Assembly: GCA_003762615.1 (NCBI GenBank)
Contig: RIAZ01000007.1
Location: 62,001-126,000, forward strand
Direction: 5' to 3'
Source: Muribaculaceae bacterium Isolate-037 (Harlan)
GTDB taxonomy: Bacteria > Bacteroidota > Bacteroidia > Bacteroidales > Muribaculaceae
Length of the DNA stretch: 64,000 bases
Of this stretch, positions 276 to 16,573 are shown in pieces (within the stretch, counting starts at the first letter, position 1; each line of letters opens with the position of its first letter). Made by a program: the position numbers and the translations under genes. The notes beneath the pieces were generated by a model. The model was not told the origin of the DNA. It searched no databases and was given only the letters and a program-made list of their open reading frames with translations.

Positions 276-1652
276 TTATTTAATGAGAACAAAAACTGTC
301 GCTGGGAGATTGATTAATAGTAGTGAAGCAACCGCTATTTTAATGATATTATTCCTTGTTATTCTATTCAATAAATAAAACTTAGTACAGAATACCATGA
401 AAAGGATAGGAACAATAGCAAATGTCCTTCTTAAATTCGGTTCTATTAATGAGCAGGAACATATATATACTATAATAATAGCGAACATCAATTTAGTAGT
501 AAAATCTGTATGATTCCGCTTAATGAATATTGCGACAGTCAAAAGCATAACAACTCTTAAGAAAGGCGAGACAATCGAAGTTATCGCAAACAATCCAGCA
601 TTGGGGTCTGCAATATATTGAATAAACGGGAATGGTGATATATAAGAATAGATCGAATTGAAGAACATATTCAATGGGAAAGGCAAAGAATTAAACTTAT
701 TATATAATCCATCACCCAAAGATACCGTATGCTCATTAAATGCATCTCTCATATTTAGAAACAACGTCAATCCTCCAGAAAGAATGAAAACAACAGCTAC
801 AAGGAATATCGTTAAATATGTTAATTGCGTAAACTTACGATATCGATAGTAATAATATAGCGGAAAACAAATTGCAAATAAACCATTCTCAATACGAAAC
901 CCTGCTACTAACAATATCAAAACAAAAAATTTTAAATAAATGAATTTATGTTTTTCATTGCTTAAAGAATAATACCCAAGAAGAGTGTAAAAAAAAGCTA
1001 CATGTAAATCCCTTGAAAATATAACTGATGTAATAAGGAGGTATGAGAATAACCCAAATAATAAGCATAATCTTAGTATTTGCACTTTGTCGAAATTGTT
1101 TTCTCGGAGATAAAGTGCAATGATGGATAGAATAAAAGGTCCAAAAAAGAGATCTTGTATTCTTAAAAAAAATCTCACTTGTGATAGATCAACCCCGATT
1201 TGTTCACCAATTAGCCACCAGCCTGAAAAAATGACCTGAGCAAAAGGGTAGTCAGGATAAATCAACATACAATGTTGTAATAAATTACTCCAACTTGCAC
1301 CATCTATATACAGCTCTGTCTGATAAAAAAATGATTTTGAGGCATCAATGTGAAAAAAATATCCATCTTGGATTCCATTGATAAAAACGATCTGGGTCAA
1401 AAGCAGATATAATCCATAAATACAAAAGAATAAATTGAATATATTAGAAATAAATCTTGATTTAGTCCATAACCTCAGAAATAGTATACCAATAATATAT
1501 ATGAAAATCAATCCCAAACCAATATGCACAGAAGAAACAAAGGAATATGAAATACACAAAAATAAAATAGACACAATAGATACTAGACTATTAAATCTAT
1601 CGTATACTATTATTGTTGAGTTTTCCTTAGACAACTGCATATTATCAATCAT
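276..1652 (-). CDS. Polytopic membrane protein, candidate polysaccharide polymerase (Wzy-like)
   Basis: 458 residues, almost entirely hydrophobic, with about ten or more predicted membrane segments and a larger loop near residues 95-150 (SKSFFYQTELYIDGASW onward). No GT-A or GT-B nucleotide-sugar signature is visible. Every Wzx/Wzy-type locus needs a polymerase, a Wzx flippase is present at 7523-9049, and this is the only other large polytopic protein here, so Wzy is the best inference. Wzy proteins are poorly conserved and EpsG-like or GT39-like membrane enzymes are alternatives. It follows a 414-bp gap holding a possible promoter and hairpins, unlike the tightly packed genes upstream. Confidence 0.55.
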   Translation of the reverse strand: MIDNMQLSKENSTIIVYDRFNSLVSIVSILFLCISYSFVSSVHIGLGLIFIYIIGILFLRLWTKSRFISNIFNLFFCIYGLYLLLTQIVFINGIQDGYFFHIDASKSFFYQTELYIDGASWSNLLQHCMLIYPDYPFAQVIFSGWWLIGEQIGVDLSQVRFFLRIQDLFFGPFILSIIALYLRENNFDKVQILRLCLLFGLFSYLLITSVIFSRDLHVAFFYTLLGYYSLSNEKHKFIYLKFFVLILLVAGFRIENGLFAICFPLYYYYRYRKFTQLTYLTIFLVAVVFILSGGLTLFLNMRDAFNEHTVSLGDGLYNKFNSLPFPLNMFFNSIYSYISPFPFIQYIADPNAGLFAITSIVSPFLRVVMLLTVAIFIKRNHTDFTTKLMFAIIIVYICSCSLIEPNLRRTFAIVPILFMVFCTKFYLLNRITRNNIIKIAVASLLLINLPATVFVLIK

Positions 1653-1768
1653 TATTTTGATTAGTTTTTTAAGCGTCTAATTTTGACGTGTAGGTCAGGA
1701 GAAAGGGCTTCAAAGCCCCTTCTCTTAAATTTTGTCAAAAATTTAGATTTTTTAATTATTATTAAAAA

Positions 1769-1792
1769 CGCTACCGATGACCATCGGTAGCG
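1769..1792 (-). terminator. Terminator-like hairpin in leader of 276-1652
   Basis: A perfect 11-bp stem (CGCTACCGATG and its complement) with a 2-nt spacer. On the minus strand it is followed directly by TTTTTAATAATAATT, so it looks like a rho-independent terminator for the GT4 gene at 2067-3221. Because a promoter element sits upstream of it at 1982-1989, it may instead act as an attenuator. Confidence 0.55.
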
Positions 1793-1981
1793 ATAAGCCC
1801 ATCACCCCCTAAGGGGGGAGTTTACATTCATATTCTTGACGAACAAGTTATATGACACGTTGTTCTTTTTATAGTATGCCTGTATCTATACTCCTCACGG
1901 CATTGCTTCAGCCATATAACCAACATAGAATCTTCCAAAATCTGTGTCAATGTACATTTTTCGATTTAAAAATTATCAGTG

Positions 1982-1989
1982 CAAAGATA
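1982..1989 (-). promoter_or_regulatory. Bacteroidetes -7 promoter element
   Basis: The minus strand reads TATCTTTG followed by CAC, matching the Bacteroidetes -7 consensus TAnnTTTG. No good -33 TTTG is seen at 19-21 bp. It would start a transcript leading through two or three hairpins into the 276-1652 gene. Confidence 0.4.
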
Positions 1990-2066
1990 AATCTTATTCC
2001 TTAGCGTTGGCATACGTCAAAATTGGATGCTTACAACTTAAAGAAGATTGCTATATCTGAAGAGAA

Positions 2067-3221
2067 TCATAATCTTGATATGATGTCCAAATACCTATCT
2101 ACAAACAGTTCAATTGTAAAGTTGCTACTAAATATTGACAGGCTTGCCGCTTCTGCTTGATGTTTTTCATCAGTTGTCATTTTGGCTATCTTTTCCAAAA
2201 GTTGAACAGCTTCTGATTGTTTATTATATAAATATATTCCCTTTCCGTCCCACTTTTTGAAGTATTTATTTCCTCCCGACTCAGAAGCAACTACCATTTT
2301 ACCTAAAGACAAGACTTCAAGTAAGATTAAATCAAAGTATGTTTCCTTATTAGGAAGCACAAATGCATCGGACGCTCCTATGAGGGAATGAGGGTCATTT
2401 GTCCAACCGACCTCAATCCACCTTGGATGATTCAGTCCTGACAATGGGTTTTCTTTTCCCGCGATTAAGAAATATGCTTTCGGATTTTTCGCCAGGATTA
2501 TCTCAGCCATATTCTTTAGATCGTCATATCCCTTGATAGAATTATGCCTTCCTGCATAAGAGAATATGACAGCATCTGAAGGTATACCATATTTTTCACA
2601 TATAAATTCTCTTGATTCCTTGACGGTTTTCCCGACTATACCGGAAGGGTTATATAGGAATCTTTCCTTTTTAGATGCTTTCAAATCTTTAAAGTGACTC
2701 CATGCATGTTCATAAGGTTCTTCGGCTTCTTTGCAAGGGAATAGAATATAATCAGCTCTATTAAAAGCATATTCATCCATGCGTATAAGATCTTTCAACA
2801 TCTTACCACATAAATGTTTCTTCATCTTAGAAGCCTCATCATGCCATTCTTTTGACAAGATTGTAGGAGAATGGGAAGTAAGAACAACCTTTCCCTTATA
2901 TGTTTTAAGACTATCCTGTGAAATAAACATTCTCCAGGTATCGTGGAAATGAATTATGTCAAATTCGTTCAAATCTATCTGAGCGGAATGATTATTTCCA
3001 TATAGGCCCTTATATAACGAGAACGTATAGCTTAAACTATTCCATATTCCAGAAAGAAATGAAGGAAGAACAATTTTGGATTTTTCCGATGGAGGTAAAA
3101 AATAAATATTTCTAAGCCCTCTTCTATCAATCTCCTGCTTGAGATTATACAAATAACCTCGAGGACCGCCAACAGGTGCTAATAAGTCCTCAGGCATATA
3201 AATTAATACTTTTTTATCCAT
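2067..3221 (-). CDS. Glycosyltransferase family 4 (GT-B fold)
   Basis: 384 residues. The N-terminal half opens with a GT-B pattern (KVLIYMPEDLLAPVGGPRGYLYNL, here a donor/acceptor loop with GGPRGY near residue 18). The C-terminal half has FSYAGRHNSIKGYDDL near residue 220, then FLIAGKENP, and SLIGASDAFVLPNKETYFDLILLEVLSLGKMVVAS, which is the usual GT4 sugar-nucleotide site (E-x7-E region). It probably adds a sugar to the growing lipid-linked repeat unit at the cytoplasmic face. It is 8 bp from the glf gene upstream and belongs to the same operon. The substrate is unknown. Confidence 0.85.
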   Translation of the reverse strand: MDKKVLIYMPEDLLAPVGGPRGYLYNLKQEIDRRGLRNIYFLPPSEKSKIVLPSFLSGIWNSLSYTFSLYKGLYGNNHSAQIDLNEFDIIHFHDTWRMFISQDSLKTYKGKVVLTSHSPTILSKEWHDEASKMKKHLCGKMLKDLIRMDEYAFNRADYILFPCKEAEEPYEHAWSHFKDLKASKKERFLYNPSGIVGKTVKESREFICEKYGIPSDAVIFSYAGRHNSIKGYDDLKNMAEIILAKNPKAYFLIAGKENPLSGLNHPRWIEVGWTNDPHSLIGASDAFVLPNKETYFDLILLEVLSLGKMVVASESGGNKYFKKWDGKGIYLYNKQSEAVQLLEKIAKMTTDEKHQAEAASLSIFSSNFTIELFVDRYLDIISRL

Positions 3222-3229
3222 CTTTTCTC

Positions 3230-4369
3230 TTATCTAAACAGTTCAAACACTTTTGCAATTATCGGTGCCATATCGTAATACTTGTATTCTGCGAGGCGAC
3301 CACCGAAGATTATGTTCTTCTCATGCTCGGCAAGGGCACGATATTGCTCATATATCGTTTGATTGCGGGCGTCATTCACGGGATAGAACGGTTCCATACC
3401 ATCTTCCCATTCTGTGGAATATTCACGGGAGATTACCGTCTTGGGATTTTCGTAGACCGCATTGCCAAAAGTTTCGAAATGTTTGTGCTCTATGATACGG
3501 GTAAAGGGTACATCGGCGGAAGTGTAGTTCACAACGGCATTACCCTGATAGTTCGGATTATCAAGTCTCTCGGTCTCAAAACGGACAGTACGATATTCAA
3601 GTTTTCCGAATCTGTAACCGTAAAATTCATCTATCTTACCGGTGAAGACAACCTTATCCGCCATACCCATCCATTTCTCTCTATCATCGAAGAAATCAAC
3701 GCCAAGCATCACATCCGAACCCTCGAGAAGACCCTCGATAAGTTTATTGTAACCGCCAATTGGAATACCTTGATATGAGTCGTTGAAGTAATTGTTGTCA
3801 AAAACCATCCGGACAGGAAGACGACGGATGATAAATGCCGGTAGTTCGGAACAAGGACGTCCCCACTGTTTCTCCGTATAACCTTTTATCAACTGTTCAT
3901 AAATATCTTTACCGATAAGTGCCAGAGCCTGATCTTCCAGGTTAAGTGGTTCTGAGATCCCTTCGGCTTTCATCTTTGCGATAGCCTCCTGACGCTGCTC
4001 ATCAAGTTTCTGACGAGCCTCCTCCGGAGTCTTCACACCCCACATCTGATAGAACGTGTTCATATTGAAGGGCAGATTGTAAAGACATCCGTTAGGAGCC
4101 TGAGCAACCGGACAATTGGTATAGCGATTGAAAGGAACGATGGAATTCACGAAATCCCATACCTCTTTGTCGGAAGTATGGAAGATATGTGCTCCGTACT
4201 TATGGACATTGATACCCTCAATATTCTCGCAATAGATATTTCCGCCGGTATGATCACGCTTGTCGATGACAAGACATTTCTTCCTTTTTTTTGTAGCGAG
4301 ATGCGCAAAAGTCGCTCCGAAAAGACCTGCGCCTACAATAATATAGTCGTAGTGTTTGGTCGTACTCAT
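3230..4369 (-). CDS. glf: UDP-galactopyranose mutase
   Basis: 379 residues. It converts UDP-galactopyranose to UDP-galactofuranose, so the polysaccharide made here probably contains galactofuranose. The N-terminus has the FAD-binding Rossmann motif YIIVGAGLFGATFAHLA, then VIDKRDHTGGNIY and the typical HKYGAHIFHTSDKEVWDFV and FNRYTN segments; IKGYTEKQWGRP and RLPVRMVFDNNYFND are conserved in the family. Length is normal. Its start codon shares one base with the stop of the GT2 gene upstream (TAATG), indicating translational coupling. Confidence 0.96.
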   Translation of the reverse strand: MSTTKHYDYIIVGAGLFGATFAHLATKKRKKCLVIDKRDHTGGNIYCENIEGINVHKYGAHIFHTSDKEVWDFVNSIVPFNRYTNCPVAQAPNGCLYNLPFNMNTFYQMWGVKTPEEARQKLDEQRQEAIAKMKAEGISEPLNLEDQALALIGKDIYEQLIKGYTEKQWGRPCSELPAFIIRRLPVRMVFDNNYFNDSYQGIPIGGYNKLIEGLLEGSDVMLGVDFFDDREKWMGMADKVVFTGKIDEFYGYRFGKLEYRTVRFETERLDNPNYQGNAVVNYTSADVPFTRIIEHKHFETFGNAVYENPKTVISREYSTEWEDGMEPFYPVNDARNQTIYEQYRALAEHEKNIIFGGRLAEYKYYDMAPIIAKVFELFR

Positions 4370-5370
4370 TATTTTGTTTTGGTTTTATTCCACAATCTAT
4401 GAACTGCTTGGTAAATATTACATAGAAATAGGGCTTGTCTATGATATCTATTACAAGCGAATTTCACCAACTTCAGTTTTATCGTATTGAATTCCTTGGA
4501 ATAAGAACAATAGTCATCATATTCTGAGAAATATTGCGTAAAATCTTTATTTGAGAATTCTTTACAAGGGAAAGCTCTATATATTATCCATGCCCCTATC
4601 CATGCCTTTAAACAGTCTTGATATTGTGTGGATTTATTAGATTTAATAATACCATCCACAAACTTTAATGCATGCATGTTATCTATAACTGTCTTTTTCG
4701 AGAAACTCTTCATGAGACTGTCCTGACGATTTATCCAATAATGATAAAACGCGCTGTCAATATAACTGATACTATGCTCTTTATCCAATAGTTGAACCCA
4801 TATCAAATCATCTTCCTGGATATAGACTCCGGGGATAAAACTCACTGTATTATAGAGCTCTCTTTTCATAAGTTTGTTCCAAAGACAACCATTGATTTTA
4901 TTTGGGACAAGACCGGTTATATTTGCTAATACAGAAAGCGATGTGAGTTCATCAGGTTCTTGTTTTTTTAATGTTTCGCTATCCGAAAAGTTTTCATAAT
5001 AGTCGCATATCACCACATCCACATTCTCGTCCGTAGCTTTGGTATACATTTTCTCGTACATGTCTAGTTCTACCCAATCATCCGGATCACAATGTATAAT
5101 GTATTCTCCAGATGCAGCGTCTACTCCATCCTGACGTGATTTTCCGACACCTTTGTTTACCTCATGCCGGATTATTTTAACCTGTTCCAACCGATTGGGG
5201 TAATCATTTAATACCTTTTTTAATAATTCTATACTATTATCTGGACTGCAATCATCCACAAATATGAATTCCAAGGAATCAAGGGTCTGACCGAAAAGCG
5301 TACGGACACAACGTTCAATGTATTTCTCAACTTTGTATACAGGAATGATGATACTTACTTTTGGTCTCAT
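4369..5370 (-). CDS. Glycosyltransferase family 2
   Basis: 333 residues with the GT2 N-terminal signature VSIIIPVYKVEKYIERCV, LEFIFVDDCSPDNS and the metal-binding IIHCDPDDWVE (D-x-D-like), then KMYTKATDENVDVVICDYY and NKLMKREL near residues 130-170, characteristic of bacterial polysaccharide GT2 enzymes. It is a cytoplasmic enzyme with an unknown sugar donor. It lies 6 bp after the pyruvyltransferase gene and overlaps glf by one base, so it is part of the same operon. Confidence 0.88.
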   Translation of the reverse strand: MRPKVSIIIPVYKVEKYIERCVRTLFGQTLDSLEFIFVDDCSPDNSIELLKKVLNDYPNRLEQVKIIRHEVNKGVGKSRQDGVDAASGEYIIHCDPDDWVELDMYEKMYTKATDENVDVVICDYYENFSDSETLKKQEPDELTSLSVLANITGLVPNKINGCLWNKLMKRELYNTVSFIPGVYIQEDDLIWVQLLDKEHSISYIDSAFYHYWINRQDSLMKSFSKKTVIDNMHALKFVDGIIKSNKSTQYQDCLKAWIGAWIIYRAFPCKEFSNKDFTQYFSEYDDYCSYSKEFNTIKLKLVKFACNRYHRQALFLCNIYQAVHRLWNKTKTK

Positions 5371-5376
5371 TTGTTC

Positions 5377-6516
5377 TTATTTTAGTGCGTTTTTTAGATA
5401 CTGGAGCGAAACTTTACGACTTTCTTCAAGAACCGTATTCACTTTATCCCAATCTATGTCTGATGGCATTTCGAAATTCGTTTTATCGGAATCTGCTATT
5501 AGTCGTGATTGCAGTCCAAAACGGTTTAATAAGGAGGTGAAACGTGTCATTCCTCTCCCGAGATTCCCTATTGCGATAAAGGGTTTGTTGAAGATTATGG
5601 AGAAGACGCATGCATGGAAACTGTCTGTGACTACAAAGTTTGCATCATGGAATCCTCTCAGCCATGTCTCTACAGCAGGCTGTATGCGTTCCGTTGCCGG
5701 AAGTTTGGTATTGTCAACATCTGCATTCACGTTGAACGGTGTCAATCCCTTTCCATCAGCAATTCGCTTTATTACGTTGGTCTTGAATTCATCCGAATCA
5801 AGTATATAGCAAAGCATATCCCCCTTACTTTTCCCCTCGCCTTTATTGTTAATTAGTTGCTCATAATCCGAGCGATTTAATAACATTGTCGGATCAAGTA
5901 CAGCTTGTGCATTTACATCAAACTGATTTTTACATATATCAACGCCTGAGTCTTCCCGTACTGACACACTATCAAATCTCTTTACAGCATTAGAACACTC
6001 CTTCTCTTCATCTGATGTATATTCGGATAGGTTATCTACACCGAATGATGCAGCATACGCGATACGTCGGACTGATTCCCAGGTTCCAGTAAATTTCAGA
6101 AAACCATCAGCCATACCGGAATGCCACATCCCACAGAAATAAGGCTTTCTCCATATCTGGTCACTGCCAACTATGATACAATCATAATCTCCTGATGACA
6201 ATTCATTAAGACCACTGACGTGATGAATCGATATATAATTCTTTATGAATTGGTTTGTATTTGATTGTATTATCGGTTTATCATGCTTAAGTTTACTCTC
6301 ATAAAATACCGGTATCTCAGATTTTCTCAGTAGTTTGTATATTAATCTCTTAGAATATACAATCGGCATTAGAAACCATGGACGTGATTTTATAATATCA
6401 GTATCAAGCACATCCACATGATGCCCCATCCGCTGAAGAACAGTCTGAAGTGCATACGCCTGAAGTATACCCCCATAATTCGTATGCAGAGGAAGTGTGA
6501 GTATGGCAATTTTCAT
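5377..6516 (-). CDS. Polysaccharide pyruvyl transferase family protein
   Basis: 379 residues. The start MKIAILTLPLHTNYGGILQAYALQ and the later DCIIVGSDQIWR and NFVVTDSFHACVFSIIFNKPFIAIGN are the standard landmarks of the polysaccharide pyruvyl transferase family (CsaB/WcaK-like). Members transfer a pyruvate ketal from phosphoenolpyruvate onto a sugar, adding negative charge. In Bacteroidales loci this gene is very often found with an F420-dehydrogenase-beta-like protein, and one is present here at 10385-12181. It lies between two GT2 genes on the same strand. Confidence 0.88.
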   Translation of the reverse strand: MKIAILTLPLHTNYGGILQAYALQTVLQRMGHHVDVLDTDIIKSRPWFLMPIVYSKRLIYKLLRKSEIPVFYESKLKHDKPIIQSNTNQFIKNYISIHHVSGLNELSSGDYDCIIVGSDQIWRKPYFCGMWHSGMADGFLKFTGTWESVRRIAYAASFGVDNLSEYTSDEEKECSNAVKRFDSVSVREDSGVDICKNQFDVNAQAVLDPTMLLNRSDYEQLINNKGEGKSKGDMLCYILDSDEFKTNVIKRIADGKGLTPFNVNADVDNTKLPATERIQPAVETWLRGFHDANFVVTDSFHACVFSIIFNKPFIAIGNLGRGMTRFTSLLNRFGLQSRLIADSDKTNFEMPSDIDWDKVNTVLEESRKVSLQYLKNALK

Positions 6517-6545
6517 TTATATGGATATTCTATTTATGACACTAA

Positions 6546-7538
6546 TTATTTTAATAATTTTAATATCCTATTATACACACTATTTAATATCCTTAAACAC
6601 GGATATTTTACTAAATAACAATCCTTAATAATATTCCTATCTTTAATATCATTATTTTTTATAAGTTGTTGCGTTTCAACCAATAAATCATCCCTATGAT
6701 AATTCAACATAAGTCTCAAATAATTCTTTACTTTTTGAATCATCAATGCTTTATTAATATCCTCAATATCCTCATCATTTATTTTTATATCTTTAATTAT
6801 ATTTCTCAACACCTTTTGAGAAATACCTATAATCTCTATTTCTTTATAAAATGAATGTGCTGTTCGGGAATGACTTCCTGCCCTTACGATATATCTATAA
6901 CATACGTCTTCAATATATCCAGCCGGATATTTGTATGCAATTGGTAGTAATAATTGATAATTTTGTCCTATTTCTCTTGGACATTGAATTATTAATGGAT
7001 TTGGCATAGCATCCCTAAACATTGAAGATCGAACCATATATCCTCCTGGAGAATAATAAATATTATTACCTGTTATTAAATCAAGGAATAAATTATCTTT
7101 ACTATCTACAATAACTCGTTGATAAAATCCTAAACGTTTAAACGTAACATCCTCAACTATTTCTGTTTTACAAATTAAAATTCCACAGTCTGGATGTTCA
7201 TCCATATATTTTATTTTTATTTCAATAGCATCTGGCGTTAAGATATCATCAGAATCAGGCCATGTCAAATATTCACCTGAAAAGATTTCCAACCCTTTAT
7301 TAATAGCAGAACTTTGTCCTCCATTTGATTGAAATAAATGGATGAATTTTATACCTTTTTCTTTAAACTTTATTTCATAACTTTTTAATATTTGTTCAGT
7401 TTGATCTGTAGAACCATCATTAATAACTATTAGTTCAATATTTGTGTAAGATTGGTCAAGTACTGAGTCTAAAAATCTTGAGACAAATTTTTCGCCATTA
7501 TAACATGGCGTAATAATTGATACTAAACCTTTTTGCAT
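6546..7538 (-). CDS. Glycosyltransferase family 2
   Basis: 330 residues. It opens with VSIITPCYNGEKFVSRFLDSV, has IELIVINDGSTDQT and the D-x-D region YLTWPDSDDIL near residue 95, and FQSNGGQSSAINKGLE before it, all typical of GT2 (GT-A fold). Its start overlaps the end of the flippase gene by 16 bp, indicating coupled translation. The coding sequence is very AT-rich, as is usual for the middle of such loci and consistent with horizontal exchange. The substrate is unknown. Confidence 0.87.
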   Translation of the reverse strand: MQKGLVSIITPCYNGEKFVSRFLDSVLDQSYTNIELIVINDGSTDQTEQILKSYEIKFKEKGIKFIHLFQSNGGQSSAINKGLEIFSGEYLTWPDSDDILTPDAIEIKIKYMDEHPDCGILICKTEIVEDVTFKRLGFYQRVIVDSKDNLFLDLITGNNIYYSPGGYMVRSSMFRDAMPNPLIIQCPREIGQNYQLLLPIAYKYPAGYIEDVCYRYIVRAGSHSRTAHSFYKEIEIIGISQKVLRNIIKDIKINDEDIEDINKALMIQKVKNYLRLMLNYHRDDLLVETQQLIKNNDIKDRNIIKDCYLVKYPCLRILNSVYNRILKLLK

Positions 7539-9049
7539 AGTTTTTTACGTAATATATATATAACTTTCATTCTTAAATCAGAGGGAAAAATACAATAGAA
7601 CCCAACAACAGTCGTAATAAAAGTATTAACTAAAATCACCATTACTAATCTTAATGGAGATTCGTCAAATTGTTGAGACATATATCCTATTGAACCAATT
7701 AATACGAACACAACTAACCATTCTTTACACAAATCTTTAAATACTATCTTGTAAAAAGAAAATGCTGTGACAAATTTTTTTATTGTATATGACGAAAAAA
7801 AAGAAGCAATAATTACAGTAATAATATTAAATAAATAGGGTAACCAAAAAGGATAACCAAACTTAAACATTATATACGTAATCGGGACTATGAGGAGAAA
7901 TAATGTTCCAGAACAAATACTTACAATTTTAACATACCCAGTTGCATGCACACAATAATTTAATGTAATAGTCATTGAAACAGCAATATTCCAAAGTAAT
8001 GACAATCTCATTAATAAAATAGTATGATCTGGTACGTCTCCTAACCAAAGATTCAAAATATATTTTGCTTCAATAATTAAAGGAACAGCAAAATATAACA
8101 TCAATACAAATGTAATACGGGATCCATTCTGAAGTAGAAATAACATCCGAGTATAATCAGAAGTACTATACGACTTTATAATCTGAGGACGTATAGCCAT
8201 AGAGATATTTGTAGAGAGATTAAGAACTATAGTCTGTACACGTGCAGCTATATCTGATGCAGCATTCATAATCGGACCGAACCACATATTTAATAGCATA
8301 TTTACGCCTTGTGTCCGTGCCATCACACTGATGTTGCCATATAAGTCCCATCCAGAAAAAGACAACATTGGTTTTATTATAGACTTATCCCATATAACGT
8401 AAACTCGACATTCTTCAAAACGATATCTACATACACAAATGTATATAAATAAAATTAATGCAGATATTGAGCATGTCAAAATAGAATACAGAATCAATTT
8501 ATTTATACAAATAACTACAAGAAGATAAACGATCAATAATCTAAGAATTGAATTTGCGATCTCAATATATGCAAATATTCCCATTTTTTCATGAGCTATT
8601 ATAGAAGCACTATATGGCACTTGAATAATATTAAAAAACATTGACAATATTGAGAAATGAAATACCCACTGAGCTGCAATTTTCTGTTCTACAGGAATTA
8701 CTAATTTATTATTTAATAGCCACATACCTATCGTTTCACAAATAATTACGATACATAAAGCAATTACGAAATGAAGAATTACAGCTGTAGAAAATGTATC
8801 TTTTAATTTTTTCACATTCCCAGTTCCCAACTCAAAAGTCAAAAATCTTGAAGTAGCTCCTGACATTGTAGAATTGAAAAATGAGAACATGGTTACAACA
8901 CCCCCAACTACGCTAAAAATACCATAATCCGTAACTCCAAGAGTTTCCAATACCACTCTTGAAGTATACAATGATATAACCATACTCAGGATCATCCTGA
9001 TATAAAGCATAATTGTATTTTTAGCTATAGTTTTGTTTGAACTTGACAT
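7523..9049 (-). CDS. Wzx-type polysaccharide flippase (MATE/MVF superfamily)
   Basis: 508 residues with about 12-14 hydrophobic segments. The start SSSNKTIAKNTIMLYIRMILSMVISLYTSRVVLETLGVTDYGIFSVVGGVV is the usual opening of a Bacteroidales lipopolysaccharide-biosynthesis flippase, followed by FFNSTMSGATSRFLTFELG. It should move the undecaprenyl-linked repeat unit across the inner membrane. It is on the same strand as the glycosyltransferases and overlaps the next gene by 16 bp. Its presence argues for a Wzx/Wzy-dependent rather than an ABC-transporter-dependent pathway. Confidence 0.9.
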   Translation of the reverse strand: MSSSNKTIAKNTIMLYIRMILSMVISLYTSRVVLETLGVTDYGIFSVVGGVVTMFSFFNSTMSGATSRFLTFELGTGNVKKLKDTFSTAVILHFVIALCIVIICETIGMWLLNNKLVIPVEQKIAAQWVFHFSILSMFFNIIQVPYSASIIAHEKMGIFAYIEIANSILRLLIVYLLVVICINKLILYSILTCSISALILFIYICVCRYRFEECRVYVIWDKSIIKPMLSFSGWDLYGNISVMARTQGVNMLLNMWFGPIMNAASDIAARVQTIVLNLSTNISMAIRPQIIKSYSTSDYTRMLFLLQNGSRITFVLMLYFAVPLIIEAKYILNLWLGDVPDHTILLMRLSLLWNIAVSMTITLNYCVHATGYVKIVSICSGTLFLLIVPITYIMFKFGYPFWLPYLFNIITVIIASFFSSYTIKKFVTAFSFYKIVFKDLCKEWLVVFVLIGSIGYMSQQFDESPLRLVMVILVNTFITTVVGFYCIFPSDLRMKVIYILRKKLCKKV

Positions 9050-9207
9050 ATAATATAAATAAAACTTCGCTTTTATTATTTAGGCGTTTGATCAGATATT
9101 ACGTTCTTTTATTTATTCTTAATAACTATTCTTTTCATCGAGAATATTTTGCATTACTATTATAAATATTTGATAAAACCATTCTTCTATTCATGGGATA
9201 TATACAT

Positions 9208-10359
9208 CTAAATCAACTTATTATAAATTTTTGTAGCAAATTTAAGTATCTTAGCATCAAGTCTTCCTTTATGAAAGGAACAATAGTAAGATATTTTATC
9301 TTTCCATGATGCATTTCCAAGATAATCAATAAAACCGATATTGAAATCTTTGGGATTGTAATTATTCCGATTGCACCAGTCTTTTACAGCTTTGTCACAT
9401 ATTCCGTCAAAAGAATAATCCATACCATCCATCCAATTATTATTGACATAAGCGTCAATAGTCTTCGCCACACCACTCTTAATATCGTATTCTTCGTTGA
9501 CAAAAGGTATTATTGACTTAACTTTGGATGATGAGCTTTTACAATCGGTTGATCTTCCAGCTATCAATTCACCTCGTCTTTCTGGAATATAAGCAGCATA
9601 TTCTTCTGGAGTGAGATCAATAGTCTTGACTGGTACTTTAAGATTCTCTTCTATTGCATGTAATACTTCCTCAAAAGAATAGACATTATTACCGCATATA
9701 TTAAACTCCTGATTATATGCCTTTTTATTTCCGATAAGAGGAACAAAAAATTTTGCAAAATCTTCCACACGCATCATATTGCACAAATTTTTACCTTCAT
9801 TCCATCTTATAATAGGTTTTCCTAAAAGAACCCTTTTTATTATGGTGCCATGTTTCCCATAAGGAGGAGTGATTCCATAAGGTATCCTCGTATCCCCATA
9901 TGTTATTGATGGTCTTATGATTGTATATGCAGTGTTTGTTTTTTGAGACAAATCCCTCAGACATTCCTCAGCTGCCCATTTATTAATACTATAATCCCAT
10001 CGGGAATCCACCTTGGAGGAATCCTCAAAACTTACATCAATATTAGGATAGTCATACACCTGAGCTGAAGAAATAAAGAAATACTGAGATGTAACTTTTG
10101 AATAAAGACTAAAGCTCTTTTTAATATCATCAGCATTATAACACAAAAAATCAATCACTGCGTCAAAGTGATCATTGCAAATAGATTTCTGTATAGTATT
10201 CACATCGTTTTTATCCGCTATAATTAAACGAATACCATCTGGAATATTAGATTTCCTATGTCCACGATTGATAATTGTTACATCTAATTTATTTGATATA
10301 CACTCTGAGAGAATTGCGGAACTGATACATCCAGTTCCTCCTATGATTAAAACTTTCAT
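9208..10359 (-). CDS. NAD(P)-dependent epimerase/dehydratase (SDR family)
   Basis: 383 residues. The N-terminus KVLIIGGTGCISSAIL is a Rossmann dinucleotide motif (GGTGxIS), FDAVIDFLCYNADDI follows, FFISSAQVYDYP is the usual SDR strand, and WDYSINKWAAEECL supplies the catalytic Y-x3-K. It probably makes or modifies a nucleotide sugar for the repeat unit; the C-terminal ~70 residues extend beyond a minimal epimerase. The next gene in the locus starts 158 bp away at 9049. The exact sugar cannot be assigned. Confidence 0.82.
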   Translation of the reverse strand: MKVLIIGGTGCISSAILSECISNKLDVTIINRGHRKSNIPDGIRLIIADKNDVNTIQKSICNDHFDAVIDFLCYNADDIKKSFSLYSKVTSQYFFISSAQVYDYPNIDVSFEDSSKVDSRWDYSINKWAAEECLRDLSQKTNTAYTIIRPSITYGDTRIPYGITPPYGKHGTIIKRVLLGKPIIRWNEGKNLCNMMRVEDFAKFFVPLIGNKKAYNQEFNICGNNVYSFEEVLHAIEENLKVPVKTIDLTPEEYAAYIPERRGELIAGRSTDCKSSSSKVKSIIPFVNEEYDIKSGVAKTIDAYVNNNWMDGMDYSFDGICDKAVKDWCNRNNYNPKDFNIGFIDYLGNASWKDKISYYCSFHKGRLDAKILKFATKIYNKLI

Positions 10360-10384
10360 AACGAACCTACAAAATCATGAATTA

Positions 10385-12181
10385 TTAATACCATTCCACG
10401 GAATCTTTAAGAACTTTAGCAGGAACACCGCCAACAATTGATTTTGCCGGTACATCTTTTGTCACCAATGCCCCGGCTGCGATTATAGCACCATCGCCAA
10501 TTGTTACTCCCTTTAATATTGTTGCTCCCTGACCAATCCAAACATGATTTCCAATCTTAATTGGTTTGGAGATAGAATAACCAGACATCTTAATCATGTG
10601 ACCATCGTAAGATCTTATCACCACATCTCTTCCTATTGCACATCCATGTCCAATTTCTATCTTATCCCCACATGTAATTTGTACATTTTCGTTTATAAAT
10701 CCATCATGAAGAATCAAATGTCCATTTTCAACAATACGTATATAAGAGCCAGAAAATATGGAAAAATTTCCAGTTATTTCAAGACTCCCATTATTTTCCA
10801 AAAGTAACCGTGTTTCCATTCGGCTATTCTTTACTTGATTTACTCCCATTCTTAATTTACCATTAATCCTTATTGAGGCATTTTTAGCAATATCTAAAAT
10901 GCAATGCCGAGTAAAGAAAAACGATATTTTAGATGTAGATGACAAGTGTTTGCTAAACAAATTTAAAGATAGTACCTTAAATAGATGTAAGGGGCTATAT
11001 CCTATAAAATTAAGCATCCTTTTTATTCCTCCCATGACAGACAGATATCTCTTTAACTTATTTTTAACAGTTGGAAGTGGGAAATACCTTTTGGCAACCT
11101 TATCAAATGTATCTTTATCAAGAGCATTAAAGAATTCATTCCTATTGTCATTTGATGGTGTTAATGAGGAATCCATTGCTGGATTGCAAAGTCTAGCTTG
11201 TTCAAGAGTAAACTGTTTCCATACTATGTCATTCTTTATTTCATTAAATAATTGTTCCCCTTTCTTTGAATTTACCATAACAAGAGAGGTACCTTTATCC
11301 TGATCCATTGTAGGATCAATATTTTCAATACCCCAAAAATCGGCTAAAGTAATATCTGATTTCTGAGGAAAGCCTTTAAATGGACAATCATAGCAAGACG
11401 GTCGAGCAAAATTACCCGATTGAAGATAACCAATAAAGAATAAATCATGATAGCGATCCTTACAATATTCTTTACCATTCTCAAAATTTACCCTCATGGA
11501 GAATCTATGCCAGCCCCATTCTTTTGCCTTGAACTTTATACGATTAGCTTTTGCTCCAAATTGAGTTTCAAGCATTTTCATATATGAAAGAAATACTTTT
11601 GGAGAATTAACTCCCCTACAGATAAAGTCAATTGTCACTAAATTATCATAATCCCTATTGCCTAAAAATCTATATAACGCTTGTATTTGACAAGGCGTAC
11701 CACAAAAAAGAACTCTTTTTTGCTCACTTAAAAGTTTTTTGATTTTTTTATAGACATTAGTAGCATTACTCTGTAAATATTTGCTACTTCGCAATTTACC
11801 CAGAGAAGAAGGCTCATTATTAATGATTTGAGACACAGTATGGTCTTCGTTATATACAGCCCCACCAACATATGAACCTTTATTATATTGATTCTGCCCC
11901 AAAACAGAAAATATACCACCCGAAGTACTATCAATTCTAATTTCTTCATCTTTTGAGTAAGCGGCATATACTTTTGGGACATCAAACCGAATAACGCTAT
12001 CTGCTTTATGCAACATCGGACATGTCTTCTCACAAAGATGGCAATTGATACACTTATCAGTATTCACTTCCGGATACCAAAAGCCCTCAATATCATTTTT
12101 AAATGTTATTGCGTTTGTGGGACATATATCTCCGCAAGCATTACATCCACAACAATCGACTTTATTTTTTATTTCAATCAT
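10385..12181 (-). CDS. Fusion: F420-dehydrogenase beta-like Fe-S protein plus hexapeptide acyltransferase
   Basis: 598 residues with two recognisable parts. Residues 1-60 carry two 4Fe-4S clusters ([12 protein letters not shown] and [12 protein letters not shown]). Residues ~80-370 match the coenzyme F420 hydrogenase/dehydrogenase beta subunit family, with [16 protein letters not shown] and [11 protein letters not shown]. Residues ~430-598 form a left-handed beta-helix acyltransferase ending [20 protein letters not shown] and VGGVPAKVL. In polysaccharide loci the Fe-S protein usually accompanies a pyruvyltransferase (here 5377-6516) and the acetyltransferase is a separate gene. The frame is open throughout, so this appears to be a true fusion. 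It is the first biosynthetic gene; an IS element lies 68 bp upstream of its start. Confidence 0.87.
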
Positions 12182-12249: not shown

Positions 12250-13145
12250 GAGCTTGTTTAAAAACAAATGTGAATAAAAAAGAGCACCAAATCAAATAAT
12301 CAGGTACTTATGCTTTGAAGATTGTTTTAATAAGTGAAAAAGAACAAACAAACTCAAAGAATCATGTATCTGACCGATTTGACTGATGCTCAAAAGGAGT
12401 ATATAAAAGGAACAATTCTCATGGATAATTGGCGTAGCAAATATGACTTTTTTCTCATACTTGACGCAATCATCTTCATTGATGTCAGTGGTGTTCAATG
12501 GAGAAATCTCCCACACGAATACCCCAAATGGCAGACAGTGTACTACTATTTCAGGCGTTGGGGAGCAATGGATGCCTTTTCTGAATTGGAGGATGTCCTG
12601 ATTCAGAAAGTAAGGCTCAAGAAAGGGGAATCCCCAACTCCGACAATCGGGGCGATAGACAGCCAAAGCTCCCGTTCCGCTCTTCCTCGCTCTGAAAAAG
12701 GTATTGACGGCAACAAGAAGGTCAAAGGTGTAAAACGCAATATAATAACCGATAAGGATGGTGATATCCTGGAAGGTTCCACGACTCCAGCCAATATGCA
12801 CGACTCCAAGACTGCCTATGCGCTTGTCGCCTTGCTTGTGGCGACTTTCCCCTGGATCAAACGCATTTATGCAGATAGGGGGTATCGTGGCAACTTCATT
12901 GAAACAGCCAAGCATGACTTCGGAATTGATATTGAGATTACACATTCTAACTACAGCGGTAAATTTGTCCCTGCCAAGAAGAGATGGGTTGTGGAGCGGA
13001 CTTTCGCGTGGTTGGATAACTTCAGACGGCTATGCCGCAACTATGAGGAAACCACTGCATCCGCCAATGAAATGCTCATGGTGGCAGCTGTGGTGTTGAC
13101 GCTCCGAAAACTCACCTCTGTTAACAATAATTTTTAAACAACCTC
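12250..13145. mobile_element. Complete IS5-family insertion sequence (IS1031/ISL2-like)
   Basis: An 896-bp element. The left end starts GAGCTTGTTTAAAAA (12250-12264) and the right end, read inward, is GAGGTTGTTTAAAAA (13145-13131): 15-bp terminal inverted repeats with one mismatch. Both ends are flanked by TTA (12247-12249 and 13146-13148), a 3-bp target duplication of the TNA kind made by the IS1031 group. One intact transposase gene lies inside. The element sits between the antiterminator-like gene and the first biosynthetic gene of the polysaccharide locus, with the transposase pointing against the locus. Confidence 0.93.
12334..13137 (+). CDS. IS5-family transposase (DDE)
   Basis: 267 residues. 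The catalytic triad is visible: D in TIGAIDSQSSR (near residue 108), D in IYADRGYRGNF (near 186) and E in KRWVVERTFAWLDNFRRL (near 227). The N-terminal SGVQWRNLPHEYPKWQTVYYYFRRW is the standard IS5/IS1031 N-terminal region. The reading frame is intact and ends inside the right terminal repeat (stop at 13135-13137), so the element is probably active. A shorter start at MYLTDLTDAQ (12364) is possible. A 217-codon open frame on the opposite strand is a shadow of this gene. Confidence 0.95.
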   Translation: MKKNKQTQRIMYLTDLTDAQKEYIKGTILMDNWRSKYDFFLILDAIIFIDVSGVQWRNLPHEYPKWQTVYYYFRRWGAMDAFSELEDVLIQKVRLKKGESPTPTIGAIDSQSSRSALPRSEKGIDGNKKVKGVKRNIITDKDGDILEGSTTPANMHDSKTAYALVALLVATFPWIKRIYADRGYRGNFIETAKHDFGIDIEITHSNYSGKFVPAKKRWVVERTFAWLDNFRRLCRNYEETTASANEMLMVAAVVLTLRKLTSVNNNF

Positions 13146-13430
13146 TTATAATAAATTGGAATATAGAACTAAGGAATCACGCTATTCACATAAAAGAGAA
13201 GTCTAAAATATGAGGGTGAATATTGAGGGTGATTGTTTTGCTATAAATTTCTTTTTATTCTTTTGTTTCTTCGTGTGAAGATGATTCTTTGTGGTCTCTG
13301 CGGTCTCTGCGGTTTTATCTGTGGTTTCGCGCTTTGCGCTCACACTTGAAACAAAACGGCTACGCTTTGGCCGACTTTCCATTTAGAGATCGGGGGGGGA
13401 TCGAGTCGGAAAGGCAGTCGGGATGGGGAG

Positions 13431-14873
13431 TTAGAGGGGTGTGATGAATTCGATGGGGACGGTGGCGGTGACGCGCGCGCCGCCGAGACTGCTGAAGGTG
13501 AGGCTCACTTTGTAGCGGTCGTGGGAAATTTTTTCTATTATGCCTACCTGTCCGACGGCGTTGCCGTGCGTGATGCGGGCGGTGCGCCCTTTCTCTATGG
13601 CGGGAAGGGCGGTCTGTCGTGTGGGGAAGTGGTAGGTGATGGTGTCGGTGCTCACTTCGCAGAGGAGCATGAAGGTGAGCATCTCGCGGTCGGAGATGGG
13701 TGCGGGGAGAGAGGTGGCGGGATGCGTGTAGATGTATGCGTCGGCTCCGAGGTAGCGTTTGAGTTGCTGCGCCACGTCTTGTGTGCAGTTGATGAAGAGT
13801 AGCGACCCCATGAATGTGGGACGCGTGGTCTTTCGCTTCTTGCCGGGGAGTTTCTTGTCGAGTGCCGCATCGGGGGGTGGTACGAATGACCGGAATGCCT
13901 CGCCGCGTAGGAAGGGTATCTGCGGACCGAAACTCTCTGCCATCGTCATGGAGTCTTCGGCATAGCAACGCATCACGTACCAGTGGAGGCGTTCGTCGGA
14001 GATACGGTTGGCTACGGTGAGCCTCGTCTCATCGATCCGCCATTGCTCGTATTGCTTTTTCCCGGTGAGTTTCTTTGCCATGTCGGTTTCCACCTGTATT
14101 GAGGCGGCTATCAGATCGGCTGGTATGTCGCATTTACGTGCGGCGGAGATCCAAGCGTCGGCAGCTGTTGCCGGGGAGAGTGTGGAGGATAGTCCGGCAA
14201 GCTGTCCGATGATGGATAGATTGTCGGAGAATCCCTTTACATCAAGCGATTCAATACATTTGGTGAATGACTTGCGGGTGCGCAGTTCAAATCTGCGGAG
14301 TATGCGACGCTGATGAGGGAGCACGGGGCGAAGCGTACCTTCCGCTGCCATGCTCTTCATGCTGTCGATGGGGAGGGCTGCGGAGAAGAGGGAGTAGAGG
14401 AATATGTCGAGTGAGTTCTGGAGGAGCGGCTGATCGGAGAGATCGAGCGAAGCAAGACGCACCACCTCATCGAATGGCATACTCCTTTCCATTGTTACGT
14501 TTTTTGAACCCAAACCGTTGAATGCTGCCTTAAACTTGGATGCGTTCTCCTTTCCGAATGAATCTTTCATGACGGCGCGGAAACTCATCTGGAAGAGTTT
14601 CACGGATGAGGGGGTCACACCTTCGCGCACGAGAAAATCGCCGAAGTCGGCTACAAAGCCGGGGTTGACGGCGTTGAGGTCGAAGTCGGGTGCGTCGACG
14701 AATTGCTCAAGACGGTTGAGCATCGCGAGGTAGTAGCGTGCCGTGCTTTTTGATTTTGAGTCGGCGACACGCTGACGCAGTGATTCTACTGAGATAAGCA
14801 CTGTGGAATTAGCTTTATTTCGGTGTGGAATCGTGGAAGGGTTCGGGGTGAAATCCGGTATTGAATCGCACAA
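13431..14873 (-). CDS. Tyrosine-recombinase-like domain fused to UpxY/NusG-like transcription antiterminator
   Basis: 480 residues. Residues ~36-110 (STARYYLAMLNRLEQF, DFGDFLVREGVTPSSVKLFQMSFRAVM) resemble the SAM-like core-binding domain of Bacteroidales tyrosine recombinases. Residues ~130-290 follow the layout of the catalytic domain but lack its residues: the box-I arginine region reads SAALPIDSM and the HxxR helix reads SPATAADAWISAA. From residue 297, HWYVMRCYAED, RPTFMGSLLFINC and a KOW-like end (IEKGRTARITHGNAVGQVGIIEKI, closing with TVPIEFI) match UpxY, the NusG-family antiterminator of Bacteroides capsule loci. Position and strand fit an antiterminator for the polysaccharide operon. 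The only start in frame before residue 48 is TTG (14871-14873), so the exact start is uncertain. Its GC content is clearly higher than that of the locus it precedes. Confidence 0.75.
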   Translation of the reverse strand: MCDSIPDFTPNPSTIPHRNKANSTVLISVESLRQRVADSKSKSTARYYLAMLNRLEQFVDAPDFDLNAVNPGFVADFGDFLVREGVTPSSVKLFQMSFRAVMKDSFGKENASKFKAAFNGLGSKNVTMERSMPFDEVVRLASLDLSDQPLLQNSLDIFLYSLFSAALPIDSMKSMAAEGTLRPVLPHQRRILRRFELRTRKSFTKCIESLDVKGFSDNLSIIGQLAGLSSTLSPATAADAWISAARKCDIPADLIAASIQVETDMAKKLTGKKQYEQWRIDETRLTVANRISDERLHWYVMRCYAEDSMTMAESFGPQIPFLRGEAFRSFVPPPDAALDKKLPGKKRKTTRPTFMGSLLFINCTQDVAQQLKRYLGADAYIYTHPATSLPAPISDREMLTFMLLCEVSTDTITYHFPTRQTALPAIEKGRTARITHGNAVGQVGIIEKISHDRYKVSLTFSSLGGARVTATVPIEFITPL

Positions 14874-15089
14874 AAAATTAAAACAACCGTTTTTTTGAGC
14901 AATTCTTCGTCTCCCCCGGAAGTTGCTTTTTGATAGTGATTCCGGAGTGACGATTAGTGCGAATCAATTGGTTTTCATTCGCTTGGATATGTAAGTAGGA
15001 TGAAGACATCTGTCTTTTCCTTTTTTGTTGCAATGGTCTGCCGAGATGAGGAGTGATGGTTGTGTCGGCAGTCGCTTTTATTTGGAACG

Positions 15090-15121
15090 CAAATTTAGGC
15101 ATTTTATTTGGTTTACGCAAA
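15090..15121 (-). promoter_or_regulatory. Promoter of the recombinase-antiterminator fusion
   Basis: On the minus strand TTTG (15121-15118), a 20-bp spacer, then TAAATTTG (15097-15090). This matches the Bacteroidetes sigma consensus TTTG-N19-21-TAnnTTTG exactly. Confidence 0.75.
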
Positions 15122-15127
15122 TTTTTA

Positions 15128-15193
15128 TGACATCATGCACATCATGTTGTGACATCATGCACATGTCAGGCTCATATCAGGCACACGTCAGGC
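15128..15193. repeat. Six 11-bp phased repeat units upstream of bioA
   Basis: Six consecutive 11-bp units. Units 1 and 3 are identical (TGACATCATGC), unit 2 is ACATCATGTTG, and units 4-6 (ACATGTCAGGC, TCATATCAGGC, ACACGTCAGGC) share the ending TCAGGC at 15166, 15177 and 15188. The 11-bp step places each unit on the same helix face. The array starts 7 bp beyond the minus-strand -33 element and ends 17 bp before the plus-strand -33 element, so a bound protein could affect either promoter. Confidence 0.75.
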
Positions 15194-15210
15194 ACAATAT
15201 TATTTTCAGG

Positions 15211-15241
15211 TTGCGTGTTTGGTTCGGATTTTGTAATTTCG
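15211..15241 (+). promoter_or_regulatory. Probable promoter of the biotin genes
   Basis: TTG at 15211-15213, a 20-bp spacer, and TAATTTCG at 15234-15241, a near match to TAnnTTTG. Transcription would begin close to 15248, about 27 nt before the bioA ATG. Confidence 0.5.
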
Positions 15242-15274
15242 CGACAGATTAATTCTTATGATTAATTTTTTATT

Positions 15275-16573
15275 ATGAGCAATTGCGGAATCAATTCTGT
15301 GCATGACGAGTTTGACCGTCTGCATCTTTGGCATCCATATACTTCCACTCATGACCCTCTGCCGACTTATCTTGTTGACCATGCGGAGGGTGCGGAGATC
15401 GTATTGGCTGACGGCACCCGTCTTATCGACGGTATGTCGTCGTGGTGGTGCGTGATCCACGGCTATAACCATCCGGTTCTCAACAAGGCGATCGCTGACC
15501 AGACTGCGAAGATGAGCCATGTGATGTTCGGAGGTCTGACCCACTCCCCTGCCATTGAGCTTGGGAAACTTCTACTATCGATTCTTCCACCGTCTATGAA
15601 CCATATCTTCTATGCCGATTCGGGAAGCGTCGCCACGGAGGTGGCGATGAAGATGGCTGTGCAGGCGCAGAATAATCCGCGCAGAACGAATTTCGCCACT
15701 ATCCGCTCCGGGTATCATGGTGACACGTGGAACGCCATGTCGGTGTGCGATCCGGTGACGGGCATGCACGGGGCTTTCGGACCGGCATTGCCGGTGAGAT
15801 TTTTCGCTGATGCTCCGGCGTGTCGCTTCGGTGAGGACTGGGACCCGAAGGATTTCGACTCTATGGCTCGTCTGCTTGACGAGCATGGGGATGAGTTGGC
15901 GGCTGTCATCCTGGAGCCTGTGGTGCAGGGTGCGGGGGGAATGCGTTTCTATCATCCGCAGTATCTTCGCGAGCTGAGGCGTGCTTGCGATGAGAAGGGT
16001 ATCCTGCTCATATTCGATGAGATTGCCACCGGATTCGGGCGGACGGGGAAACTCTTTGCGTGGGAACATGCGGGAGTGGAACCCGACATAATGCTCATCG
16101 GAAAAGCCTTGACCGGAGGTTACATGACGTTCTCTGCAGTGGCTGCCACGGCGAAGGTCGCCGACATGATATCGTCGGGCGAGGCGGGAGTGATGATGCA
16201 CGGTCCCACATTCATGGGGAACCCGCTTGCTTGCGCGGTGGCACTCGCATCGGTAAGGCTGCTGCTCGCCTCCCCGTGGCAGGAGAGGATCAAGCGCATC
16301 GAGAGCATCATGAAGGAACGTCTTGAGGAGGCACGCAATTATCCCAACGTGCGCGACGTCAGGGTGCTCGGTGGTATCGGCGTGATTGAGACGGAGCAAT
16401 ACGTGGATTGCGGTGAGTATCAGAAGCGTTGTGTGAAGGAGGGGGTATGGATACGCCCATTCGGTCACAATTGCTACATAATGCCTCCATATATGGCAGT
16501 CAGCGACAGCCAGGTGGAGAAGCTCTGCGATGCGTTGCTTAAACTGACAAGAGAGATGCCATGCCGGAAATAA
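15275..16573 (+). CDS. bioA: Adenosylmethionine-8-amino-7-oxononanoate aminotransferase
   Basis: 432 residues, normal for BioA. It makes 7,8-diaminopelargonate from KAPA in biotin synthesis, using PLP. Landmarks are [15 protein letters not shown] at the N-terminus ([10 protein letters not shown]), [89 protein letters not shown] (the PLP lysine lies in IGKALTGG) and [15 protein letters not shown]. It is the first gene of the operon and overlaps bioF by 13 bp. Confidence 0.97.

Follow-up and report, generated by a model that had tools for sequence, protein, structure and literature searches.

What a disabled recombinase does in front of a transcription antiterminator is the question raised by a gene of Muribaculaceae bacterium Isolate-037 (Harlan), found in a 64,000-nucleotide stretch of contig RIAZ01000007.1 (this whole stretch is referred to below as the window; its relevant features are listed in Table 1). 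The first-pass annotation described the gene product as a tyrosine recombinase deprived of its catalytic residues, fused to a UpxY/NusG-type antiterminator and encoded at the head of a polysaccharide locus. In our analysis this composite nature of the protein was confirmed, and we consider it fairly probable that the fusion acts as an operon-specific processive antiterminator of the UpxY class, tethered to its own operon by the catalytically dead recombinase N-terminus.

Table 1. Features of the fused locus, in window coordinates
Feature	Position	Strand	Basis and remarks
Recombinase–UpxY fusion gene	13431..14873	-	480 codons from TTG 14873; alternative start GTG 14801
Core-binding (SAM-like) domain of tyrosine recombinase, residues 38-109	14547..14762	-	Pfam PF13102, E 1.2e-7; hhalign; structure
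Catalytic-domain-like region without the five catalytic letters, residues 131-290	14004..14483	-	hhalign (to residue 266); catalytic columns
UpxY-type NusG N-terminal domain and KOW, residues 295-479	13437..13991	-	NCBIfam NF033644; PDB NusG chains; structure
Leader box CCGGGGGAGACGAAGAAT	14902..14919	-	29-46 nt upstream of TTG; weak fold, then T-tract to about 14875
Bacteroidetes-type promoter TTTG-N20-TAAATTTG	15090..15121	-	Sequence and regular expression; leader about 200 nt
Five copies of TGTGCcTGAyr in 11-bp register	15131..15196	-	Just upstream of the -33 box, beside bioA
Downstream polysaccharide genes	276..12181	-	Pfam: glycosyltransferases, UDP-galactopyranose mutase, pyruvyl transferase, epimerase, FrhB/hexapeptide protein
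IS4/IS5-type transposase between fusion gene and operon	12334..13137	+	Opposed to operon
Possible IS terminal repeats	12242-12274/13121-13153		76% identity

A catalytically dead tyrosine recombinase joined to UpxY

Both halves of the protein were recognized by profile comparison as well as by structure prediction. When the family was aligned by hhalign with 12 live integrases, residues 39-266 corresponded to tyrosine recombinases with 99.2% probability (E 3.4e-19), and the UpxY model NF033644 matched residues 298-476 (E 5.8e-14) over positions 1-163 of its 164, in agreement with the annotated completeness of the NusG-like/KOW end. The score of the window protein, 52.4 bits, lies below the curated NCBI cut-off of the model (100 bits), which is exceeded by the fused relative from genome G205 (106.6 bits); a match to NF033644 was obtained for 11 of 11 family members. 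Seven NusG chains from PDB also matched the NusG/KOW half (E 2.9e-4 to 8.2e-4). In the AlphaFold model (mean pLDDT 80), residues 25-292 resemble Xer/integrase structures and residues 295-480 resemble NusG, the comparison of residues 296-480 with Thermotoga NusG (2xhc) covering 138 positions of the NusG part. The core-binding and catalytic domain folds of a tyrosine recombinase are both present, and the protein is confirmed as a catalytically dead recombinase N-terminus followed by a UpxY-class C-terminus, i.e., by a paralogue of NusG. The true start of the window gene may be GTG 14801.

The loss of the catalytic residues was analyzed in an alignment of 32 fused rows (the window protein, 21 further frames, the divergent frames L138 and L139, and eight database proteins) to 49 rows of integrases, which come almost entirely from Muribaculaceae genomes; among the latter, one gene is present twice (L066 = L085) and L023/L025 are near-copies. 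The catalytic columns were assigned on the basis of what we take to be the canonical residues of tyrosine recombinases. The window protein retains none of the five letters R-K-R-H-Y, and the same is true for 28 of the 32 fused rows, one letter remaining in the other four, whereas all five were found in 47 of the 49 integrase rows and four in the other two; the alignment, and hence the column readings, are uncertain for the most divergent fused rows. Column by column, the first R is present in 1/32 fused versus 47/49 integrase rows, the hairpin K in 0/32 versus 49/49, the second R in 2/32 versus 49/49, the H in 1/32 versus 49/49, and the Y in 0/32 versus 49/49. The absence of the R and HxxR residues was thus read correctly in the first pass. 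Trp241 (window numbering) is kept in 29/32 fused and 48/49 integrase rows. The fusion therefore shares with recombinases of the PF13102 type the core-binding domain and the outline of the catalytic domain including W241, but it lacks the catalytic R, K, R, H and Y and is joined to NusG, so that cutting of DNA is not to be expected.

Genomic context, spread and history of the family

The fusion gene heads a polysaccharide locus, as had been annotated: the window operon was identified with Pfam, and in 17 of the 20 fetched loci of its relatives, genes of polysaccharide type come after the fused gene on its strand, according to a reading of N-termini rather than an HMM scan, the remaining three loci ending at a contig edge. 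Within the window operon, a flippase-like protein (508 aa, recognized by eye) and a 458-aa protein gave no Pfam match. The accompanying statement that Bacteroides capsule loci are headed by a separate invertase proved too simple, since, according to a study on B. fragilis, one global invertase serves seven of the eight loci (PMC12632263). The window copy may be uncoupled from its operon by the IS element with the opposed transposase; this element may sever the operon from its promoter, or the antiterminator may read through it.

In Bacteroides, upxY and upxZ are often the first two genes of capsule loci, as stated in the same source (PMC12632263). No small second gene follows the fusion gene in the window. 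Small genes encoding 106-152 aa follow the fusions at L090, L092, L094, L101 and L103, roughly at the upxZ position of Bacteroides; the six small genes behind the relatives' fusions matched no Pfam family above cut-off, and it is possible that they represent unrecognized UpxZ analogues.

The matches to the UpxY model in the window's genome comprise the housekeeping NusG, encoded next to secE and rplK, as well as the window gene, another fusion (contig C29) and the frames on contigs C69, C102 and C52. The five non-housekeeping matches lie in frames of 463-589 codons; no standalone UpxY was found in this genome above the cut-off, its single standalone match being the housekeeping NusG. Standalone UpxY genes are frequent in Muribaculaceae, a match above the cut-off being present in 97 of 147 genomes. 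Separate integrase and UpxY genes are neighbours at L030, L040, L063 and L064, and in genome G377 the fused gene is preceded, at a distance of about 400 bp, by an integrase with late catalytic motifs. The three frames on C69, C102 and C52 (L137, L138 and L139, 514-581 aa) are long and very divergent, those on C102 and C52 being near-copies of each other; judging from their length and from reading by eye, they are probably recombinase-UpxY fusions too.

The fusion is not confined to the window, its presence in related genomes being confirmed. The protein search, in which the best 7997 candidates were scored, gave 11 proteins, ten of them with 93-100% query coverage at 28-99% identity; the database relatives show 28-46% identity, the near-identical P0002 and P0003 excepted. 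With the full-length profile (E<=1e-20), the family was detected in at least 18 of 397 Muribaculaceae genomes and at least 7 of 30 genera, including the short forms in G284 and G315 and the split gene in G296; these counts are lower bounds, in which weak cases may be missed, as at most four candidates per genome were scored with this profile and eight with that of the fused NusG part. Two further genomes of the 20 listed, G283 and G293, were dropped, their matches being intact integrases. In the window's genus, 11 of 111 genomes contain an open frame of 463-535 codons reaching the NusG part (E<=1e-15); the frames were read in six of these (G000, G030, G114, G047, G016, G147) and in G033. When 22 fused frames were scored with each domain profile separately, 18 matched the core-binding or the catalytic profile and four (L137, L038, L037, L101) matched neither; L037 (= L103) and L101 align with the full-length profile over much of the recombinase part. 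In a sample of 393 genomes of the order Bacteroidales (up to four candidates per genome), the full-length profile at E<=1e-25 found the window's own genome as the sole match, and the frames that the fused NusG profile (E<=1e-12, eight candidates per genome) matched in the other genomes did not exceed 367 codons. Two profile scans of the genome_contigs and viral_contigs collections revealed no relatives. An artefact, such as a chance or misjoined frame, was rejected, the fusion recurring as one frame in many genomes.

In a quick tree of the NusG domains, from which L138 and L139 were left out, 29 of the 30 fused rows formed one clade together with two short rows and one split row (SH-aLRT 97), L137 falling outside it on a very long branch. 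A single clade of the fused rows was not rejected in the tree of the recombinase domains (p-AU 0.872). The short forms L096 (336 residues) and L099 (301 residues) have lost the catalytic-like part and kept the NusG part; against the full profile both retain a core-binding piece, at positions 41-80 and 39-68, and the core-binding domain profile is matched by L096 (alias L076; E 1.2e-4) and not by L099 (alias L079). Since these forms lie inside the fused clade and keep a remnant of the core-binding domain, the fusion probably came first and the recombinase shell was lost later.

Two further arrangements were observed. In G296 (L092) the fusion is split into a recombinase-like and a NusG-like frame (3388-4020 and 2792-3445), representing either a broken copy or a secondary split. 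In G336 a second, divergent fusion-like gene (L084, 1967-3442; 491 aa, E 9.8e-21, profile positions 9-379) stands head to head with the fused gene.

A purine-rich box in the leaders of fused genes

Twenty-six fused genes have in common an 18-base motif, with the consensus cgGGGGGAGaaAAAGaAT, in the 300-bp regions surrounding their called starts. Its log-likelihood was 136, as compared to 56-64 in 12 shuffled sets and 57-67 in eight sets of other genes, the control motifs having been fitted with fewer starting points and rounds. A score of at least 14.7 was reached at 18 of the 26 fused genes, a count that includes three near-copy pairs and is favoured by scoring the training set itself, versus none of 25 standalone UpxY genes, which were taken from the UpxY loci with the best scores and from the integrase loci (maximum 7.3), none of 49 integrases (maximum 10.7) and 1 of 203 other genes. 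Thirteen of the 18 boxes begin 44-89 bases ahead of the called start; the other five lie at -17 or within the called frame, these starts probably having been called too early. When each locus was held out together with its near-copy, if it belonged to one of the three near-copy pairs (40 starts, 200 shuffles), 12 of the 26 loci scored at a level attained by no more than two of the 200 shuffles and 14 failed, the motif being shifted in some of the held-out fits; the window box scored 19.8, a value reached by none of the 200 shuffles.

No place in the window matches the matrix better than the true box (20.1), yet six others score 15.2-18.4, as high as the leaders of fused genes. A stricter pattern, drawn from these same sites, has three exact matches in the 4.9-Mb genome, each preceding a UpxY-model frame (in the window, on C52 and on C102), and 13 one-mismatch matches, versus nine for a control pattern. 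Downstream of the box lies a T-tract and, at several loci, a hairpin as well. No common structure emerged for 14 leader boxes with RNAalifold (0 pairs), no terminator was detected in the window's leader by a simple scan, and Rfam gave no matches over positions 12900-15400 at E<=1. A short translated leader peptide (TTG after a purine run) was considered as an explanation for the box and dropped, the frames differing between loci. Scanning genome_contigs with the box pattern gave 76 stretches, approximately the chance expectation for 16 fixed bases by our own estimate, none of them with a called family frame. One stretch, L171 from Muribaculum sp. SC0335, carries the box before the start of a broken fused gene: it shares with G238 the leader, the beginning of the gene and the adjoining neighbour (332 matching positions over 337 residues), the gene being broken near a run of G. 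The purine-rich leader box accompanying the fused genes is a new observation.

Such a box could also be read by the NusG-like domain itself, in the way that RfaH recognizes ops on the non-template strand, with the dead recombinase being an autoinhibitory or stabilizing appendage. In favour of this reading, the box belongs to the transcribed leader and lies a short way ahead of the gene, where factors of the RfaH and LoaP type load; it is purine-rich and precedes a T-tract, and RfaH is loaded by a non-template DNA sequence, as described in a paper on LoaP (PMC12691694). On the other side, the box accompanies the fusion (18/26 fused versus 0/25 standalone UpxY genes), but this association does not separate the two readings, because the fused NusG domains also form a clade of their own. 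On balance, we regard recognition of the box by the NusG-like domain as somewhat unlikely.

Possible role of the recombinase module

The helix bearing K92, R99 and K103, which presumably is the one touching DNA in the relatives of the module, shows a changed pattern of basic residues: K or R occupies the K92 column in 22/32 fused versus 0/49 integrase rows, the R99 column in 21/32 versus 49/49, and the K103 column in 25/32 versus 1/49. The mean net charge of the core-binding part is +1.9 in the fused proteins versus +3.4 in the live integrases, and that of the catalytic-like part is -1.6 versus +8.4. These kept and newly acquired basic residues on the presumed DNA-contact helix, along with the leader box accompanying the fused genes, are circumstantial evidence in favour of a DNA-directed role; the lower basicity of the core-binding part and the negative charge of the catalytic part count against a DNA tether, as does the absence from the window of the inverted repeats present at some relatives.

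According to two papers, UpxY proteins act in the leaders of their own operons, where they keep transcription from terminating prematurely (PMC7819879, PMC7315117). On the basis of homology, antitermination of its own operon is a well supported predicted function of the fusion protein, and it is plausible that the dead module directs this antitermination to DNA, as suggested in the first-pass annotation. By analogy with UpxY, the NusG/KOW half would associate with RNA polymerase within the operon's own leader, and the polymerase carrying the fusion protein would continue transcribing through the long downstream operon. Less surely, the core-binding domain may still hold DNA, either that of the leader or promoter or the duplex behind the polymerase, and this hold might tether the antiterminator to its own operon, with the catalytic shell serving as a scaffold that would be free to erode or be deleted. 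NusG and UpxY contact the upstream DNA duplex, as stated in the LoaP paper (PMC12691694), and an N-terminal DNA-holding module would be well placed for such a contact.

That the recombinase part is instead a passive leftover of gene fusion, or a surface for protein-protein contacts devoid of DNA binding, would agree with the loss of positive charge from the catalytic-like part, with its absence from L096 and L099 and with the low identity of most database relatives (28-46%); nevertheless, the recombinase part is retained in the fused genes of seven genera, with conserved basic positions, and if a domain of about 250 residues were useless, its loss should be seen more frequently, so we hold such passivity to be unlikely.

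A different kind of link between recombination and the fused operons concerns their promoters, which were called here with the consensus that we take to be characteristic of Bacteroidetes (-33 element and -7 box TAnnTTTG). Inverted repeats were searched for at 24 fused loci, 21 of which have at least 600 bp upstream. At six of them a pair of TCTCTTnnnAAGAGA or a close variant encloses 147-235 bases; each of these six segments contains one -7 box, located 14-39 bases from one arm and directed toward the gene in three loci and away from it in three, and a -33 element was also found in four. Invertible promoters at these six loci are, as judged from the sequence, a further new observation. At the window locus no inverted-repeat pair surrounds the promoter, which is instead a fixed one preceded by the 11-bp direct repeats, and the double-unit pattern of these repeats occurs in the genome solely at the window site. 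The inverted-repeat pairs are not peculiar to the fusion, because they are also present near live-integrase genes, at two of 25 standalone UpxY loci (L064 and L030, both beside integrases) and at Ssp defence genes. The latter case is L140 on contig C14 of the window's genome, where a TCTCTTnnnAAGAGA pair at 101153 and 101328, with one -7 box between its arms, is situated between divergent genes, those on one side encoding defence proteins that resemble SspB and SspC (PADLOC E 6.9e-87 and 3.7e-77); an invertible promoter may here switch a phage-defence system.

It seems quite improbable that the dead module governs a live recombinase, locking the promoter by binding the inverted repeats or by forming mixed tetramers and so coupling inversion to antitermination: the six segments with -7 boxes facing either way, the similar pairs near live integrases and the integrase upstream of the G377 fusion would fit such a role, but 18 of the 24 fused loci, including the window, have no such pair, and the two standalone UpxY loci possess it beside integrases. 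Returning to the fusion as a tethered antiterminator, a more specific version, which we put forward tentatively as a possibility, is that the retired recombinase serves as a sequence reader which loads a NusG-type antiterminator on one operon, reading either a recombination site at the promoter or the leader box.

With UpxY (NF033644) the fusion shares the NusG N-terminal and KOW domains, the position as the first gene of a polysaccharide operon, the long leader and the presence of several copies per genome; it differs in approximately 290 extra N-terminal residues of a dead tyrosine recombinase, in its own clade and in its own leader box, and in score the window protein falls under the curated value, the G205 relative exceeding it. 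RfaH and LoaP are likewise operon-specific NusG paralogues loaded at leader elements (for the fusion, such loading is presumed), but these elements, namely the ops DNA and the dfn RNA hairpin, differ from the GGGGGAGA box of the fusion. To our knowledge, neither factor has a recombinase module. NusG of Thermotoga also bears an added domain, DII, which helps its recruitment (PMC7819879); DII is a different domain. The plant ALOG proteins resemble the fusion in that a recombinase DNA-binding domain has turned into a regulator; they differ in being eukaryotic, in having a zinc ribbon inserted in the domain and in lacking a NusG partner (PMC3537659). The two probably originated independently. No fusion of a recombinase with UpxY or NusG was found in the full-text literature searched, which included few subscription papers, so that within this literature the annotated lack of a described example holds.

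In the literature surveyed, it is not settled how UpxY discriminates its own operon, and the fusion family makes this question directly testable, because it brings together a candidate reader, the dead recombinase, and a candidate address, the leader box. If antitermination is indeed addressed by the recombinase module, phase switching and transcript elongation would share one DNA address. Should the DNA role be true, the family would exemplify, in bacteria, the domestication of a recombinase's DNA-binding domain as part of a transcription elongation factor. The invertible promoters at some of the fused loci point to a two-layer logic of polysaccharide phase variation in these gut commensals, similar to that of Bacteroides and built from different parts.
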